Shown in pieces: positions 1 through 9,306 of a stretch of DNA of 9,306 nucleotides (position 1 is the stretch's first letter; each line of letters starts with the position of its first letter). Below the pieces are notes generated by a model, which saw only the letters and a list, made by a program, of their open reading frames with translations, was not told where the DNA came from and searched no databases. This DNA is from Thermopetrobacter sp. Its GTDB lineage: Bacteria > Pseudomonadota > Alphaproteobacteria > Rhizobiales > Aestuariivirgaceae. Position numbers and translations under genes: made by a program. The DNA lies in contig DRPD01000184.1 in the NCBI GenBank assembly GCA_011374735.1, positions 1-9,306 of the forward strand, in the 5' to 3' direction.

Positions 1-24
1 GCAAGGCAACTCGCAGGGTGGAAA

Positions 25-383
25 TCAGCGCGCGCCGGCGCGGGGCCGCCAGGCGAAGGGGCCGGCGCGCTCATAGAGCCAGTGATACTGGGTGATCATC
101 TGCTTCACGCGGGTCAGGCGATAGCCCAGCAGGGCCGCCGCCAGCAGCACCGCGGCGGCGGTGGCATAGGCCCTGAGCGACAGCAACGCCTCGCCGAACA
201 GGGCGTAATGCAGAAAGCGGGTGGCGGCGGCCAGCAGCAGCATGTAGATGACCAGCTGCCAGACGGGGCGCCATTTCAGGGCCAGGGCGCGGCCCGACAG
301 GAAGGCCGCGCCGCCGGCGATGATGACGGTGAGGATCAGGAACACCGCCGGCGTGCTGCCGGTGATCTGCTGGAAGACGCCGC

Positions 384-387
<4 letters not shown>
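25..387 (-). CDS. DUF6867-type small membrane protein at the end of the liv operon
   Basis: This is a 120-residue integral membrane protein of unknown function. Three hydrophobic segments are visible at about residues 13-33, 41-62 and 72-90. They are followed by a basic, aromatic tail with QYHWLYERAGPFAW at about 100-113. That tail and the position right after livF match my recollection of the DUF6867 family of alphaproteobacteria, which often sits beside branched-chain amino acid transporter genes; the family name is from memory. The start at 387 was chosen because its ATG overlaps the livF stop (ATGA) and is preceded by a strong GGAGGGCGGGG ribosome site. The frame stays open upstream only as a by-product of GC-rich sequence antisense-free inside livF. 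An accessory or stabilising role for the LivHM channel is a guess from context. Nothing is visible in bases 1-24 beyond the gene. Confidence 0.8.
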
Positions 388-3297
<2,910 letters not shown>

Positions 3298-3300
3298 GGC

Positions 3301-4215
<915 letters not shown>

Positions 4216-4260
4216 GAATGCTCCCCCTCCCCTGCACGCGGACGCATGATGGCGCTCTCG

Positions 4261-4330
4261 TCGTCTGACGCTTTTAGCCTTGCGCGGCGGCGCTGGCAAT
4301 AGATGATCGCACGGGCAGGCCATCAGACGA
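4261..4330. repeat. Inverted 8-base repeats flanking the livH promoter
   Basis: TCGTCTGA at 4261-4268 and its exact reverse complement TCAGACGA at 4323-4330 flank the candidate livH promoter. The second copy sits inside a small palindrome, CCATC-AGAC-GATGG (4320-4333). The first copy falls at the predicted transcript start and the second about 25-30 bases upstream of the -35 box. They could be paired operator half-sites for a regulator of livH, of the divergent gene, or both. No regulator gene is present in the window, and chance is possible. Confidence 0.3.
4271..4299 (-). promoter_or_regulatory. Candidate sigma70-type promoter of livH
   Basis: On the minus strand, TTGCCA (4294-4299, five of six matches to TTGACA) is followed after 17 bases by TAAAAG (4271-4276, four of six matches to TATAAT). 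Transcription would start near 4264, giving a leader of roughly 50 bases that includes the purine-rich ribosome site. Spacing and position are good. It is a visual match only. Confidence 0.45.
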
Positions 4331-4439
4331 TGGTTCAAGACGGCGATTCACCATAGCGGCAGAGAGGCGGCGGTAGGGCGGCGGCGGTGTGCTATCCGAT
4401 GACGGCGACGTTGCAGACGGCAAGCGGGAACTTGCGGAC

Positions 4440-5003
4440 ATGACACCGGCCACGACCACGGACGCCCTCGACGCCCATCACGACCTGACCTGGCTGATCG
4501 GGGCGCTGGCCCGCGCCCTGCACGCGCGGCGCGATATGCATTCGGCCATTCTGCCGGCCCTGGAGCGCGTGGCCGGGTGTGATTTCAACGCGCCGCTGGC
4601 GGACACCGCGCCACGGCTGGCGGCGGCCTGCCGCCGGCTGCCGGAGGCGGTGGTGGCGGCGCTGCCGGTGGCGGAGGAAGTGGCGCAGGCGCTGGCGGCG
4701 TGCTTCGAGCACCTCAAGTGGCGCGGCGATGACGCCCAATGGGCGGCGGCGGACGTGCTGGGGCCTGTGGGGCCGGTGCGCTGCGCGAACGGCGGCATTC
4801 GGGTGGTGATCGCCGCGCAAGACGCCGTGGCGCCGGTGGCCGATGAGCGGAACCTGCTGTTCGTGCTGGCCGGGCGGGCCGGGTATCATGACATGCACGG
4901 GGCGCTGCGCCAGCTCGACGCCGGCGGGGTGGCCGTCGTCGGCGGCCATGAGCTGCGCGCCTGTTCCTCCGCGCCGCTGCTGGCGGTGTTACTCAAGCGA
5001 TAG
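4440..5003 (+). CDS. Hypothetical protein, likely a degenerate DddQ/DMSP-lyase-like cupin
   Basis: A 187-residue protein that I do not recognise with certainty. The layout resembles the DMSP-lyase (DddQ-like) cupin family: a helical N-terminal half (about 15-92), then W94, LGPVGP at 108-112, a beta-rich stretch from 117, [10 protein letters not shown] at 141-150 and [18 protein letters not shown] at 170-187. In active members the strand before the FVLxG motif carries a HxHxxxE/Y metal site. Here that stretch reads [10 protein letters not shown], so those ligands are absent; H170, near the position of the last cupin His, and R173 remain. It is probably cytoplasmic, with no signal peptide. An in-frame GTG at 4389 would add 17 residues. 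I prefer 4440 because G/C at third codon positions rises sharply there, but neither start has a clear ribosome site. The 3' end overlaps the end of convergent gltX by 15 bases. Catalysis is doubtful; a binding or regulatory role is equally possible. Confidence 0.6.
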
Positions 5004-6338
5004 CCGCTCAAGCGCCCGGGCGCGGCCGATCAATGGCAGCAAACGGCCCATTTCCGGGCCATGCGCGCGGCCGGTCAGCGCCCGGCGCAGGGGCTGAAAC
5101 AGCGCCCGACCCTTGCGCCCCGTCCGTTCCTTCAAGGCCGCCGTCCACTCCTTCCAAGTGTGCCCGCCCCACGGTTCTCGTGGCAGCAGGCGGGCGGCGG
5201 CGGCGATGAAATCGCGATCTTGCGGATCGATGCGCGGGGTGATGTGGCCGTGGACGACCTCCACCCACGCGCTCACATCGGCCAGCTTCTCGACATTTCC
5301 CCTGACCGCCTGCCACAATGCTTCGTCCGCGTCGACCCCCAGGGCCCGCAGCCGCGGCGCGGCCGTCTCCCAGTCCATGGCGTGCAGCAGCTTGGCGTTG
5401 AGCGCATGCAGCTCGCGTTCATCGAAGCGGGCCGGGGCGCGCGAGAGATTCTCCAGATCGAAACGGGCCGCCAGTTCATCCATGTCGCCGAACGCCGCCA
5501 CCGGCTGCGACGTGCCGACGGTGGCGCAGTAGGACACCACCGTTTCCGGCTCCAGTCCCGCCTCCCTGAAGGCGGCGACGGTCAGCGATCCGGCGCGTTT
5601 CGACAGCGGGCCGCCATCGGCGTTGACCATCAGGGCGTGGTGGGCGAAGGCCGGCGGGGTGGCGCCCAGCGCCTCGGCAAGGGCGATCTGCACGGCGGTG
5701 TTGGTGACATGATCCTCGCCACGGATGACGTGGGTGATCTCCATCTCGATGTCGTCCACCACCGACGGCAGGGTGTAGAGGTAGCTGCCGTCGGCGCGGA
5801 TCAGCACCGGGTCGGACAGGGTGGCGAGATCGATAGCCACCTCTCCGCGCACCCGATCGGTGAAGCGCACCACGCCGGAAGGCAACCTGAAGCGCCAGTG
5901 GGGCTTGCGGCCGGCGCGTTCAAGGGCCGCCCTTTCGGCTTCGCCGAGCTTCAGCGCGGCGCGGTCATAGACCGGCGGGCGGCCGGCCATCACTTGCGCC
6001 TTGCGCTTCAGGGCCAGCTCCCGCTCCGTTTCGTAGCAGGGATAGAGCAGCCCGGCGTCCTTCAGCTTCTGCGCCGCCGCGTCGTAACGGGCCAGCCGTT
6101 CGCTCTGGCGGTGCATGGCGTCGGGCGCGAGGCCCAGCCAGTTCAGGTCATCGATGATGGCCCGGGCGTATTCCTCCCGGCTGCGTTCTTCGTCGGTGTC
6201 ATCGAGACGCAGAATGAAGCGCCCGCCGCGCGGCTTCGCGAACAGCCGGTTGAGCACGGCGGTGCGGATGTTGCCGATGTGCAGGCGGCCGGTGGGCGAC
6301 GGGGCGAAGCGCACGGTGACGGGGCGTCGTTCGGTCAT
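4989..6338 (-). CDS. gltX: Glutamyl-tRNA synthetase (GluRS2-type)
   Basis: A cytoplasmic class I aminoacyl-tRNA synthetase that charges glutamate onto tRNA. The 449-residue protein opens with [18 protein letters not shown] at 11-28, containing the HIGH-class motif as LHIGN (19-23). [11 protein letters not shown] lies at 46-56 and [11 protein letters not shown] at 205-215. The KMSKS-class loop is GPLSKRAG at 243-250, so the usual first Lys is Pro. The anticodon-binding half is present to the end. Alphaproteobacteria often carry two GltX proteins, one of which can charge tRNA(Gln) for amidation by GatCAB; this resembles the shorter GluRS2 kind, but tRNA specificity cannot be read here. The start overlaps the nadE stop (ATGA), implying coupled translation. 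The stop (TAA, complement of 4989-4991) lies inside the end of the convergent cupin-like gene. Confidence 0.93.
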
Positions 6339-7996
6339 GTCCGGCCGTTCTCCCTGAAGGCGTTGGTGATGGGCCAGCGGCGGTCGCGGCCGAAGTTGCG
6401 GCGGGTGATCTTGACGCCGGGGGCGGCCTGGCGGCGCTTGTATTCGGCCACATACAGCAGATGCTGGATGCGCGCCACCAGCGCCCGGTCATGGCCGCGC
6501 GCGGCGATCTCGCCCACCGACAGCTCCTCCTCGATGAGCCCTTCGAGAATGGCGTCGAGCACCTCGTAGGGCGGCAGGGTGTCCTGATCGGTCTGGCCGG
6601 GCCTCAGTTCGGCGGAGGGCGCCTTGGTGATGATGCGCTCCGGGATCACCTCCCCTTGCCGGTTGCGCCATTTCGCCAGCCCATAGACCTGCGTCTTGTA
6701 GATATCCTTCAGCGGGTTGAAGCCGCCGTTCATGTCGCCATAGAGCGTGGCGTAACCCACCGACATCTCCGACTTGTTGCCGGTGGTCAGCACCAGGGGG
6801 CCGAACTTGTTGGAGATGGCCATGAGCACGACGCCGCGGGCGCGCGACTGGATGTTCTCCTCCGTCACGTCCGGCTCCCGCCCGGCGAACAGCTCCTTGA
6901 GCGCCGCGGTGAACCCCTCCACCGGCTGGAAGATCGGCACCACGTCATGGCGGATGCCGAGCGCGGCGGCGCAGGCGCGGGCGTCCTCGATGGATTGCGG
7001 CGCGGTGTATTCATAGGGCAGCATCACCGCCCACACCCGTTCCGGCCCCAGCGCGTCGGCGGCCATGGCCGCCACCACCGCCGAATCGATGCCGCCGGAC
7101 AGTCCCAGCACGACGCCGGGAAAACGGTTCTTTTCCACATAATCACGGGTACCCAGCACGCAGGCGCGCCAGACGGCCTCTTCTCCCTCCGGCCGGGTGG
7201 CGCAGCCGGCGGCGGCGACGTGCCAGCCATCAACCGTTTTTTCCACGGCGCAGGTGAGGGTTTGTTCGACGAAACTCTCCATGCGCCACGCCAGACCGGC
7301 GCAGTCGGGCTGTTCCCTTCCCGGCCGCGGGTTGAGGGCGAAGGAGCCGCCGTCGAACACCAGTTCGTCCTGGCCGCCGACCAGATTGAGATACACCAGC
7401 GGCAGGCCGGTTTCGGCCACCCTTTCGGCGGCCAGCTTCAGCCGCGTGTCGTGCTTCTCCGTCTCGAACGGCGAACCGTTGGCGACCAGCAGGATGTCCG
7501 CGCCGCGCGCTCGCAGATGCTTCGCCACCGGCTCCGTCCAGATGTCCTCGCACACCGGCAGGCCCAGCTTCAGGCCGCGAAACGCCACCGGCTCCGGCAA
7601 GGGGCCGGGCGCGAACACCCGCTTTTCGTCGAACACGCCGTAGTTGGGCAGATCGTGCTTGAACCTCAGCGCCGCCACCTCGCCGCCGGCCAGCAGCGCC
7701 ATGGCGTTGTAAACCCTTCCCTCTGCGCGCCACGGGGCGCCGATGAGCATGGCCGGGCCGGAAGCGGTTTCGGCGGCCAGCTCCCGAACCGCGGCCATGC
7801 AGGCGTCGATGAAGGCGGGGCGCAGGATCAGGTCTTCCGGCGGATAGCCGCAGATGAACAGCTCCGGCAGCATGACGAGATCGGCCCCGTCTCGCGCCGC
7901 ATCGGCCAGCGCGGCCAGCGCCTTTTGCGCATTGCCGGGGATGTCGCCGACCAGCGGGTTGCCCTGATGAAAGGTGATGACGATGCGCGCGCTCAT
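6335..7996 (-). CDS. nadE: Glutamine-dependent NAD(+) synthetase
   Basis: Catalyses the last step of NAD synthesis, amidating nicotinic acid adenine dinucleotide with ATP and glutamine-derived ammonia. The 553-residue protein is the two-domain type. The N-terminal nitrilase-like glutaminase has a Glu-Lys-Cys triad visible as E45 ([14 protein letters not shown]), K113 ([14 protein letters not shown]) and C149 (LPVCEDIW). The C-terminal synthetase has the PP-loop SGGIDS at 300-305, with [18 protein letters not shown] and [13 protein letters not shown] further on. All catalytic residues seen are intact. The start at 7996 ([14 protein letters not shown]) fits homologues; an in-frame ATG at 8035 would add 13 residues, but those codons lack the gene's G/C third-position bias and overlap a candidate -10 box. 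The four-base overlap with gltX makes a nadE-gltX operon. Confidence 0.95.
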
Positions 7997-8030
7997 GATT
8001 GCCGTTCGCCGATGATGCCTGTCGGCGGCA

Positions 8031-8060
8031 GGCATACTCCGCCCGGCGTGGCGCTGGCAA
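8031..8060 (-). promoter_or_regulatory. Candidate promoter of nadE-gltX
   Basis: On the minus strand, TTGCCA (8055-8060) and TATGCC (8031-8036) are separated by 18 bases; the -35 is good and the -10 weak. An A/T-rich run, AATTTTAAT at 8077-8085, lies about 17-25 bases upstream of the -35 box, where an UP element would sit. A start near 8024 would support the nadE start at 7996. The -35 shares an 11-base block with the livH promoter. Confidence 0.3.
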
Positions 8061-8099
8061 CCGTCCCGCCTTGAGCAATTTTAATGTGCGCGGGGACGG
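8061..8099. repeat. Inverted repeat in the nadE / dsrC-like divergent region
   Basis: CCGTCCC (8061-8067) and GGGACGG (8093-8099) form a perfect 7-base inverted repeat around a 25-base centre that contains the only clear A/T-rich run of this intergenic region. It could be an operator shared by the divergent genes or a chance GC-rich pairing. Confidence 0.25.
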
Positions 8100-8107
8100 G
8101 TGGCGCC

Positions 8108-8135
8108 TTGCGTTTTCTCCGCACTGTGGCAGAAT
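8108..8135 (+). promoter_or_regulatory. Weak candidate promoter of the dsrC-like gene
   Basis: TTGCGT (8108-8113) and CAGAAT (8130-8135) are 16 bases apart, with three and four of six matches to the sigma70 consensus. A start near 8142 would give a leader of about 48 bases. That leader would carry a tandem ATTCAA-ATTCAA (8152-8163) and the strong ribosome site GGGGGAGG (about 8174-8181) before the ATG. The match is weak, and an alternative sigma factor or activator is possible. Confidence 0.25.
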
Positions 8136-8189
8136 GCCGCAAGGACGTGAGATTCAAATTCAAGACAGGCAGAAGGGGGAGGAACCATC

Positions 8190-8549
8190 ATGCCGACCAC
8201 CATCCAGCACATCATCCATCCCGGCGCCACGTCCGACACCCCGGAGTTTCCCGACGCGCCGCCGGAGTGGTCGCCGGCCATGGCCGTAGAGCGGGCGAAG
8301 GAGCTGGGCATCGAGATGACCGACGAAATCCGGGAAGTGATCCGGGTGCTGCAGGGCGCCTATCGCGACGAACCGGAGCCACCGCTGCGCCGTCTGCACG
8401 ACGCGCTGGAAGGGCGCTTCGCCAAGCAGGGCGGCGTGAAGCATCTCTACGCGGTGTTCGGGCGCGGGCCGATCACCGCCGGATGCTATCTGGCCGGGCT
8501 GCAACCGCCGGCCGGGGCGGTGGATCAGGGCTTCGGCTCCGTGGCCTGA
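8190..8549 (+). CDS. DsrC/TusE-family sulfur-carrier-like protein with a single, non-terminal cysteine
   Basis: A 119-residue cytoplasmic protein of the DsrC/TusE/DsvC family. Family landmarks are the W27 region (PPEWSPAMAVERAKELGIEMT), EIREVIRVLQGAY at 46-58, RRLHDAL at 67-73, KHLYAVFGRGP at 84-94 and the C-terminal arm TAGCYLAGLQPPAGAV at 96-111. In DsrC the arm carries CysB and, eleven residues on, a penultimate CysA; TusE keeps only CysA. Here the CysB position is C99, while the CysA position is Ala110, followed by an eight-residue extension (DQGFGSVA). So the residue used for trisulfide or persulfide transfer in known DsrC/TusE is missing. A strong GGGGGAGG ribosome site precedes the ATG. 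The gene leads into cytochrome c and SQR genes, suggesting a role in sulfide oxidation as carrier, chaperone or regulator. Family assignment is firm; function is open. Confidence 0.85.
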   Translation: MPTTIQHIIHPGATSDTPEFPDAPPEWSPAMAVERAKELGIEMTDEIREVIRVLQGAYRDEPEPPLRRLHDALEGRFAKQGGVKHLYAVFGRGPITAGCYLAGLQPPAGAVDQGFGSVA

Positions 8550-8550
8550 C

Positions 8551-9012
8551 ATGAAGTCTTACTGGACGTGGGTGGCAGCCGCCGGCGTGGTGCTGGTGGG
8601 GGCCATCTGGTGGGCCGGCCGCCCGCCCTCGCCATCCGGCAACACGGCCGCTGCCGGTGTCTTGCTGAAGCCTGACGACAAGGCGCTGGTGGAGCGCGGC
8701 GCACGTGTCTACGCGCAGAATTGCGCCACCTGCCATGGCGCCGACCTGAAGGGGCAACCGGGCTGGCGGCGCAATCCGAGGCTGGCCCCGGCCCATGACG
8801 AGACGGGCCACACCTGGCATCATCCCGACACCCTGCTCGTCGCCGTGACGCGCGACGGCACGGTGTTTCGCGGCGGCGCCATGCCACCCTTCGGCAAGGT
8901 GTTGAGCGAAGAAGACATCATCGCCGTGCTGTCGTTCATCAAGAGCCGCTGGCCAGAGGAAATCCGCGCCGCACACGATCGCATCAACAGACGGGCGGCC
9001 GGGCGGGGCTGA
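8551..9012 (+). CDS. Membrane-anchored monoheme class I cytochrome c
   Basis: A 153-residue periplasmic electron carrier. Residues 5-21 form a hydrophobic signal or membrane anchor (WTWVAAAGVVLVGAIWW). With no obvious signal peptidase site, I infer that it stays tethered. A Pro/Ser/Gly linker follows to about residue 35. The heme site is CATCH at 58-62 in YAQNCATCHGADLKG, and the likely distal ligand is Met111 in FRGGAMPPFGKVLSEEDI; the C-terminal helix IIAVLSFIKSRWP completes the fold. The ATG lies one base after the stop of the dsrC-like gene with no good ribosome site of its own, so translation is probably coupled. Its closest visible relation by layout is to small cytochromes that accept electrons from dehydrogenases or feed oxidases. 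Beside an SQR-type flavoprotein it may take sulfide-derived electrons, but that is inference. Confidence 0.9.
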   Translation: MKSYWTWVAAAGVVLVGAIWWAGRPPSPSGNTAAAGVLLKPDDKALVERGARVYAQNCATCHGADLKGQPGWRRNPRLAPAHDETGHTWHHPDTLLVAVTRDGTVFRGGAMPPFGKVLSEEDIIAVLSFIKSRWPEEIRAAHDRINRRAAGRG

Positions 9013-9023
9013 GCGCCCCGCCC
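9001..9023 (+). terminator. GC-rich hairpin over the cytochrome c stop codon
   Basis: GGGCGGGGC (9001-9009) pairs perfectly with GCGGGGC's complement GCCCCGCCC (9015-9023) to give a nine-base-pair stem with a five-base loop, TGAGC, which contains the TGA stop. The following bases (TGTTGCT) have no real T-run, so it is not a textbook intrinsic terminator. It may partly terminate, or stabilise the mRNA 3' end, between the cytochrome gene and the SQR gene. Confidence 0.45.
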
Positions 9024-9033
9024 TGTTGCTACG

Positions 9034-9047
9034 CCTGACAAATCAGG
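9034..9047. repeat. Small inverted repeat upstream of the SQR gene
   Basis: CCTGA-CAAA-TCAGG is a perfect five-base inverted repeat with a four-base centre. It lies about 50 bases upstream of the candidate SQR -35 box, where an activator site could sit. The spacing does not fit FNR or CRP sites, and the regulator is unknown. Confidence 0.25.
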
Positions 9048-9099
9048 ATAGAACGCCCCTGTTTTCATGGTCACCGGATGGGGGACGTGGCCGCGATCC

Positions 9100-9128
9100 T
9101 TGACAGGCGGGGGGCGCCCTTCACATCC
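9100..9128 (+). promoter_or_regulatory. Candidate promoter of the SQR gene
   Basis: A perfect TTGACA (9100-9105) lies about 45 bases before the SQR start. The best -10 candidates (TCACAT at 9121-9126 or ACATCC at 9123-9128) are poor. With the 135-base gap and the preceding hairpin, this suggests that the SQR gene can be transcribed apart from the dsrC-like and cytochrome genes. Confidence 0.3.
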
Positions 9129-9147
9129 GTTTCGAGGGAGGAGAGAC

Positions 9148-9306
9148 ATGGCACACATCGTCGTGATGGGATCGGGGATCGGCGGCATTCCGGCGGCCTA
9201 CGAGCTGAAGGATGTCATCGGTTCGGGCGACAGGATCACGGTCATCAACAACCGGCCGTATTTCCAGTTCACGCCGTCCAACCCGTGGGCCGCGGTGGGC
9301 TGGCGC
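9148..9306 (+). CDS. Sulfide:quinone oxidoreductase-type flavoprotein (5' part)
   Basis: The first 53 codons of an FAD-dependent oxidoreductase, cut by the window edge. The N-terminus has the FAD-binding strand and GSGIGG motif at 8-13, then PAAYELKDVIGSGDRITVIN at 15-34 and PYFQFTPSNPWAAVGWR at 37-53. The YFQFxPSNPWxxVGW signature closely matches what I recall of the N-terminus of Acidithiobacillus-type SQR. Such enzymes are peripheral membrane proteins that oxidise sulfide to polysulfide and reduce quinone. The redox-active cysteines and quinone-binding residues lie beyond the window, so a related flavoprotein such as the FCSD flavin subunit is not excluded. The start is well supported by a GAGGGAGGAGAG ribosome site at 9134-9145. 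The dsrC-like and cytochrome c genes lie upstream on the same strand. Confidence 0.82.
   Translation, partial: MAHIVVMGSGIGGIPAAYELKDVIGSGDRITVINNRPYFQFTPSNPWAAVGWR

Follow-up and report, generated by a model that had tools for sequence, protein, structure and literature searches.

A CysA-less DsrC paralog family with a conserved FGSV-type tail that accompanies dsrA, and its predicted non-carrier role

DsrC is the hub of dissimilatory sulfur metabolism, and proteins that share its fold differ in the cysteines of their C-terminal arm. The canonical form (DsvC) has a cysteine called CysB within the arm and another, CysA, as its penultimate residue, whereas the single cysteine of TusE is CysA. 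RspA, also of the DsrC superfamily, is said to have been presented by Venceslau and colleagues in 2014 as a regulatory protein for which the conserved cysteines are not needed. Here we examine a DsrC-like gene in a 9,306-nucleotide stretch of Thermopetrobacter sp. DNA (contig DRPD01000184.1, positions 1 to 9,306; hereafter the window), whose product has CysB, an alanine in place of CysA, and an additional tail. The window is one contig (C184) of a genome of 1.84 Mb in 410 contigs, 92.7% complete and of the same genus as Thermopetrobacter sp. TC1.

The A. vinosum genome paper leaves the roles of four DsrC paralog genes open (PMC3368242). Expression on pyrite is reported for four A. vinosum paralogs, of which three were up about 2- to 4-fold and one was down about 7- to 8-fold (PMC11267869). 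Other papers list several TusE/DsrC/DsvC genes in Thiocapsa bogorovii (PMC10892978) and phage DsrC proteins without a conserved cysteine (PMC4164917, PMC8190135). Searches of the open literature gave no description of a cellular DsrC family that has the FGSV tail or CysB alone, although the RspA set may hold part of it; what was read of the Thiocapsa paper and of PMC13047784, PMC5516251, PMC11636981 and PMC8232776 contains nothing decisive on the family. The features of the gene are as follows:

8190..8549, plus strand: DsrC-family protein of 119 amino acids, with C99 as CysB, A110 at the CysA position and an FGSV-type tail (open reading frame, Pfam, homologues)
8484..8486, plus strand: TGC codon of C99 at the CysB position (aligned with CysB of 1yx3, 1sau, 2xsj and the genome's own DsrC)
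8517..8519, plus strand: GCG codon of A110 at the CysA position (same alignments)
8523..8546, plus strand: C-terminal extension D112-A119, DQGFGSVA (conserved in relatives; residues 113-119 modelled with low confidence)

The window protein takes the DsrC fold and scores 52.6 bits against the Pfam DsrC model PF04358 (curated cut-off 24.9), which places it in the superfamily. It falls short of the TIGR03342 model for TusE/DsrC/DsvC sulfur relay proteins (41.9 vs. 53.5 bits) and lies far under the cut-off of the TusE model (34 vs. 191 bits). With canonical DsrC the family shares the Pfam core, the arm motif GPxxQxCxxAGLxxPxG, CysB (C99 in the window protein) and the genomes in which it occurs; it differs by lacking the penultimate CysA, A110 being followed in the window protein by nine more residues, and by the eight-residue tail, D112-A119, that extends past the usual DsrC end. 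The window's branch also has FPDAP at the place of the canonical EEGYL, whereas members of the Sulfuricystis and Gallionella types retain an EGxL block. The window gene, in contrast to a canonical one, lies outside the dsr cluster of its own genome (dsr genes on contig C132). These comparisons uphold the preliminary description, which had proposed a cysteine at CysB, an alanine at CysA and eight extra residues, a pattern the reverse of that in TusE: the fold and a single cysteine are common to both proteins, but here the cysteine is CysB. The alignments keep C99 at CysB rather than at some other position, and a structural match agrees, in range, with the placing of C99 and A110. A similarity of the window protein to Fur/PerR was too weak to use.

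Conservation of this arrangement extends well beyond the window. Our first homologue search returned 13 proteins, and neither C99 nor A110 varies in the alignment of these with the query (14 rows). The pattern is thus no sequencing error, a possibility that the preliminary description had raised for codon 110 or the 3' end; a copy 87% identical to the window protein has the same tail. A genome scan found 17 loci that, judged from record titles, belong to Alpha-, Beta- and Gammaproteobacteria, across which the tail is kept. After a profile search (best 120 of 4327 proteins) the collection came to 122 proteins, which were aligned with the query. Among these 123 rows, the CysB position is Cys in 120 and Ser in 3, and the CysA position is Ala in 117, Ser in 5, Thr in one and never Cys; the tail is conserved at D112 (121/123), F115 (119/123), G116 (123/123) and S117 (120/123), and 116 rows have only one Cys in the entire protein. 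A second profile search, seeded with five divergent tailed proteins (best 120 of 5174), again gave no protein with Cys at CysA (0/120). The strict tail pattern is present in 114 of them, with Cys (76), Ser (33), Met (4) or Thr (1) at CysB; the other six have Cys (3) or Ser (3) there. The gene is under purifying selection in the genus, nonsynonymous divergence (dN) from eight genus members being 0.28-0.30 and synonymous divergence (dS) 0.62-1.37, and the proportion of nonsynonymous differences (pN) in the arm is as low as 0.02-0.05 in several closer genus pairs.

The family accompanies dsrA near-strictly in the sampled genomes. Among 60 genomes of relatives, with members defined by scores above 120 bits, 18 contain a member and all 18 are dsr genomes: 17 have dsrA over the cut-off, and G046 qualifies because it has a dsrB-like match and fragments of dsrA where contigs end. 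No member occurs in the three other dsr genomes (G010, G026, G047) or in any of the 39 non-dsr genomes. Three of the members, from genus g8, have a degenerate tail, and weak dsrA-model matches, seen in 43 of the 60 relatives and also in controls, were left uncounted. A phylum-wide sample of 398 genomes includes at least six members over 100 bits, a lower bound since only part of the first-look candidates was scored, and all six are among the 53 genomes with dsrA; in G420, which likewise has dsrA, a tailed member devoid of Cys scores 80 bits. In family f107, described as Gallionella-like from the name of one record, 21 of 80 genomes have a member (≥118 bits); dsrA is present in 46 of the 80, including 20 of these 21, and the remaining one, G490, is 77% complete. 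Fisher p values for co-occurrence are 1e-12 (relatives), 4e-6 (phylum sample) and 2e-5 (f107), all made optimistic by kinship; counting the relatives by genus gives 7/8 with and 0/26 without dsrA (p 1.5e-6). Canonical DsrC is present in all 28 dsr genomes checked. DsrE (TIGR03012), present in 68 of the 71 genomes scanned, fails to distinguish those with a member from those without, and DsrD was of no use for recognizing the reductive type, having no match in the 71 genomes or in controls. Thermopetrobacter TC1 is reported to have dsrABEFHCMKLJOPxN and soxXYZAB (PMC5099947).

To place the family among other paralogs, all PF04358 places in the 28 dsr genomes were listed and nearly all fetched, which together with other loci yielded 132 distinct frames, including a spurious one. 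Their tails are canonical (CysB and CysA), CysA-only (TusE-like), of the GGY, WSTG or FGSV types that we name here, or one of a few others. The main tree used core columns only (query 25-98), with arm and tail excluded, and had 172 rows. Canonical rows that were nearly identical (16) and a single weak frame had been removed, and the sets of 122 and 120 proteins described above contributed 21 and 36 rows, respectively. On this tree the family consists of 82 tailed rows (pattern slightly widened) and four tail-less rows added by their arm, and these 86 rows, window included, make up one side of a branch with support of 98.4, the few columns leaving inner forks weak. CysB is absent in 21 of the 86 and changes seven times, one branch having mostly Ser there; the tail is absent in four and changes twice. 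An earlier tree of 158 rows recovered family groups of 56 rows (support 92) and 53 rows (support 98), with five and four CysB changes, respectively, and two tail changes. All 20 fetched f107 members end in D-x-(S/A)-F-G (13 with the strict tail, 7 ending FGWA), and 18 of the 20 lack CysB (17 Ser, 1 Thr, as read from printed arms). It is thus the tail, rather than CysB, that marks the family. The CysB-only pattern was rejected as a defining trait because WSTG-tailed paralogs have CysB too (12/13, vs. 1/27 in the GGY class) and whole tailed branches are without it. The WSTG and GGY paralogs resemble the FGSV family in lacking CysA and in occurring in dsr genomes, but their tails differ, and the three form separate groups on the core trees.

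The WSTG class, in which these residues end a CysA-less arm, comprises L063, L065, L121-L123, L125, L126, L129, L130, L133, L134, L136 and L012:5617-5946. Examples of the GGY-ending class, without CysB in 26 of 27, are L059:6788-7120, L068:1347-1727, L114 and L117; in G276, G302, G326 and G420 a GGY gene is about 1.5 kb or less from dsrA. The FGSV-family member of G046 (L158:4117-4566) ends in FGSVC, so that its last residue is Cys. One scan of viral contigs gave 137 pattern matches to the family, none of which was confirmed as a viral copy.

Source records name the relatives sulfur relay protein, TusE or sulfite reductase, many of them "tRNA 2-thiouridine synthesizing protein E"; our results suggest that the sulfur relay name is wrong for such proteins, as the tRNA-related one very likely is. 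The genomes of sulfur oxidizers hold several DsrC paralogs with open roles, among which this family is a clean handle, with its conserved tail, missing carrier cysteine and near-strict dsrA company.

What the protein does has to be judged against the chemistry of DsrC itself. In the DsrC of A. vinosum, CysA (Cys111) is the only site of persulfidation and of sulfite binding, and a CysA mutant left with CysB alone failed to take up sulfur, while its binding to DsrEFH was much weaker (PMC3397948). Because sulfur and sulfite sit on CysA only in that protein, we predict that the window protein does not act as a sulfur carrier. We hold, with middling confidence, that it is a non-carrier DsrC paralog that would dock on a Dsr pathway protein with a binding site for DsrC and tune that partner. 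The observed basis comprises the missing CysA, the tail, a single family on core columns, purifying selection, the company of dsrA, a canonical DsrC alongside, and one locus (L012, below) with the gene next to dsr genes; tuning without transfer is favored since CysA is gone, the arm is kept and the tail is conserved. The kept arm suggests a DsrC-type site, and the conserved tail, with pLDDT below 50 for residues 113-119 in two AlphaFold2 models (the second of family member P0020), suggests a flexible docking segment. The arm block GPxxQxCxLAGLxxPxG could still fit a site made for DsrC on DsrAB, DsrEFH or DsrMK, the tail may add a contact with the partner, and the paralog might occupy or adjust the DsrC site, since neither an intramolecular disulfide nor a CysA persulfide can form. 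Where CysB is kept, as in the window protein, a mixed disulfide could add redox control, which cannot be needed across the whole family. A binding partner without transfer chemistry was among three ideas in the preliminary description and is the best fit of the three. A stronger version, in which this large family would have exchanged its sulfur-carrying end for a docking tail and would act as a dedicated plug or brake of reverse Dsr, strikes us as rather unlikely; the arm would then enter the site that DsrC uses on DsrAB (or on DsrEFH or DsrMK), and the FGSV tail would lock there, so that sulfur flux stops until release.

Several observations weigh against the non-carrier docking role. In the window's own genome, dsrA, a dsrB-like match, dsrE and canonical DsrC are on contig C132, apart from the gene in question, and the only examined locus with a family gene beside dsr genes is L012, from the Bradyrhizobiaceae metagenome-assembled genome FeB_22, where it adjoins a CobB/DsrN-like gene followed by DsrP-like, DsrJ-like (both under the model cut-offs) and DsrK genes (above its cut-off). 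A member was not seen in 46 of the 53 phylum-sample genomes with dsrA or in 26 of the 46 in f107, so that Dsr function does not depend on it. Four rows are counted as family without a tail, and a tailed member in G502 (L164, G502:C2:528931-529290) has Cys at CysA and Ser at CysB with the tail behind. The arm of the window copy is no better kept than the rest (pN 0.21-0.25 vs. 0.23-0.24 for the whole gene), and low confidence in the tail in both AlphaFold2 models leaves a docking pose unavailable. Docking on DsrEFH would require the tail, given the much weaker DsrEFH binding of CysA-mutant DsrC.

Alternatively, C99 might serve as a lone thiol that pairs with a second protein, for example at the CysA of canonical DsrC, in a mixed disulfide or a persulfide, and so reports or resolves the redox state of the pathway. 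Its retention in 120 of 123 relatives, its being the sole Cys in 116 of them, the 76 of 114 tailed proteins of the second set with Cys at CysB, and the constant presence of canonical DsrC (28/28) fit this idea, yet 38 of those 114 have Ser, Met or Thr instead, as do 18 of the 20 fetched f107 members (Ser or Thr), and CysB changes seven times on the tree. We therefore regard this explanation as doubtful, and the one-cysteine sensor of the preliminary description, though possible, is not general: CysB Cys is missing from a third of the tailed set (33 of the 38 with Ser) and changes seven times where the tail changes twice. An RspA-like regulator, with a helix-turn-helix-like core that binds DNA or a regulator and an arm devoid of sulfur chemistry, is a tentative option that we would not expect to hold; RspA is described, like the family, as a DsrC-superfamily protein incapable of CysA chemistry.

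The idea that sulfur is carried on CysB in place of CysA draws on the usual retention of CysB and, in the genus, on the cytochrome c and sulfide:quinone reductase (SQR)-like genes behind the DsrC-like gene. It was also raised in the preliminary description and is the weakest of its three ideas, since the CysA-only sulfur binding of A. vinosum DsrC and the lack of bound sulfur in its CysB-alone mutant (PMC3397948) contradict it, as do the whole tailed branches without CysB and the lack of homologous neighbors at 16 distinct loci outside the genus; we consider it very improbable. Our results suggest that a lone CysB in a DsrC-like protein should not be taken as a carrier. Decay of the paralog or a 3'-end assembly error could be read into I47-R48 of the window copy, where most relatives have HW, but the 87% identical copy with the same tail, dN well under dS, and retention of the tail across three proteobacterial classes refute it for the family and make it extremely improbable for the window copy.

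Two genes follow on the same strand:

8551..9012, plus strand: c-type cytochrome with CXXCH and a hydrophobic N-terminus (by eye), Pfam Cytochrome_CBB3 55.2 bits
9148..9306, plus strand: start of a flavoprotein, likely of the SQR/FCSD type, truncated where the contig stops; it shares 79% identity with the beginning of L005:9674-10942

The cytochrome gene starts one base past the DsrC-like stop, and the two are likely in the same transcript. The L005 gene is a Pyr_redox_2 protein whose best match is the type III SQR model, at 106 bits and under the cut-off of 525. Ten loci of the genus were available, two on contigs that end too soon, and in seven of the eight testable the DsrC-like gene is followed by cytochrome c and then SQR-like genes; the deviating one, in TC1, has a related cytochrome gene 5.6 kb upstream. 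A divergent MarR gene lies upstream of the DsrC-like gene at eight of the ten loci and is absent in the window. Outside the genus, tblastn at 1e-8 found homologues of these cytochrome and SQR neighbors at 0 of 16 distinct loci (some stretches being short), and at L057 different cytochrome genes, of the c and b types, lie 1.2-4 kb from the family gene. The clustering with SQR and cytochrome c genes that the preliminary description had looked for is thus real inside the genus, and was rejected as a general link.

A promoter scan found none, and one terminator-like site was seen against 0.7 expected. Elsewhere in the window, the minus strand at 384-4338 holds genes that, from reading the sequence, likely encode a liv-type branched-chain amino acid ABC transporter, and an open reading frame of 204 amino acids without a Pfam match occupies 4389-5003 on the plus strand. 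At 4989-8035 on the minus strand, a class I Glu/Gln-type tRNA synthetase gene and one for an NAD synthase with a carbon-nitrogen hydrolase domain overlap by four bases.
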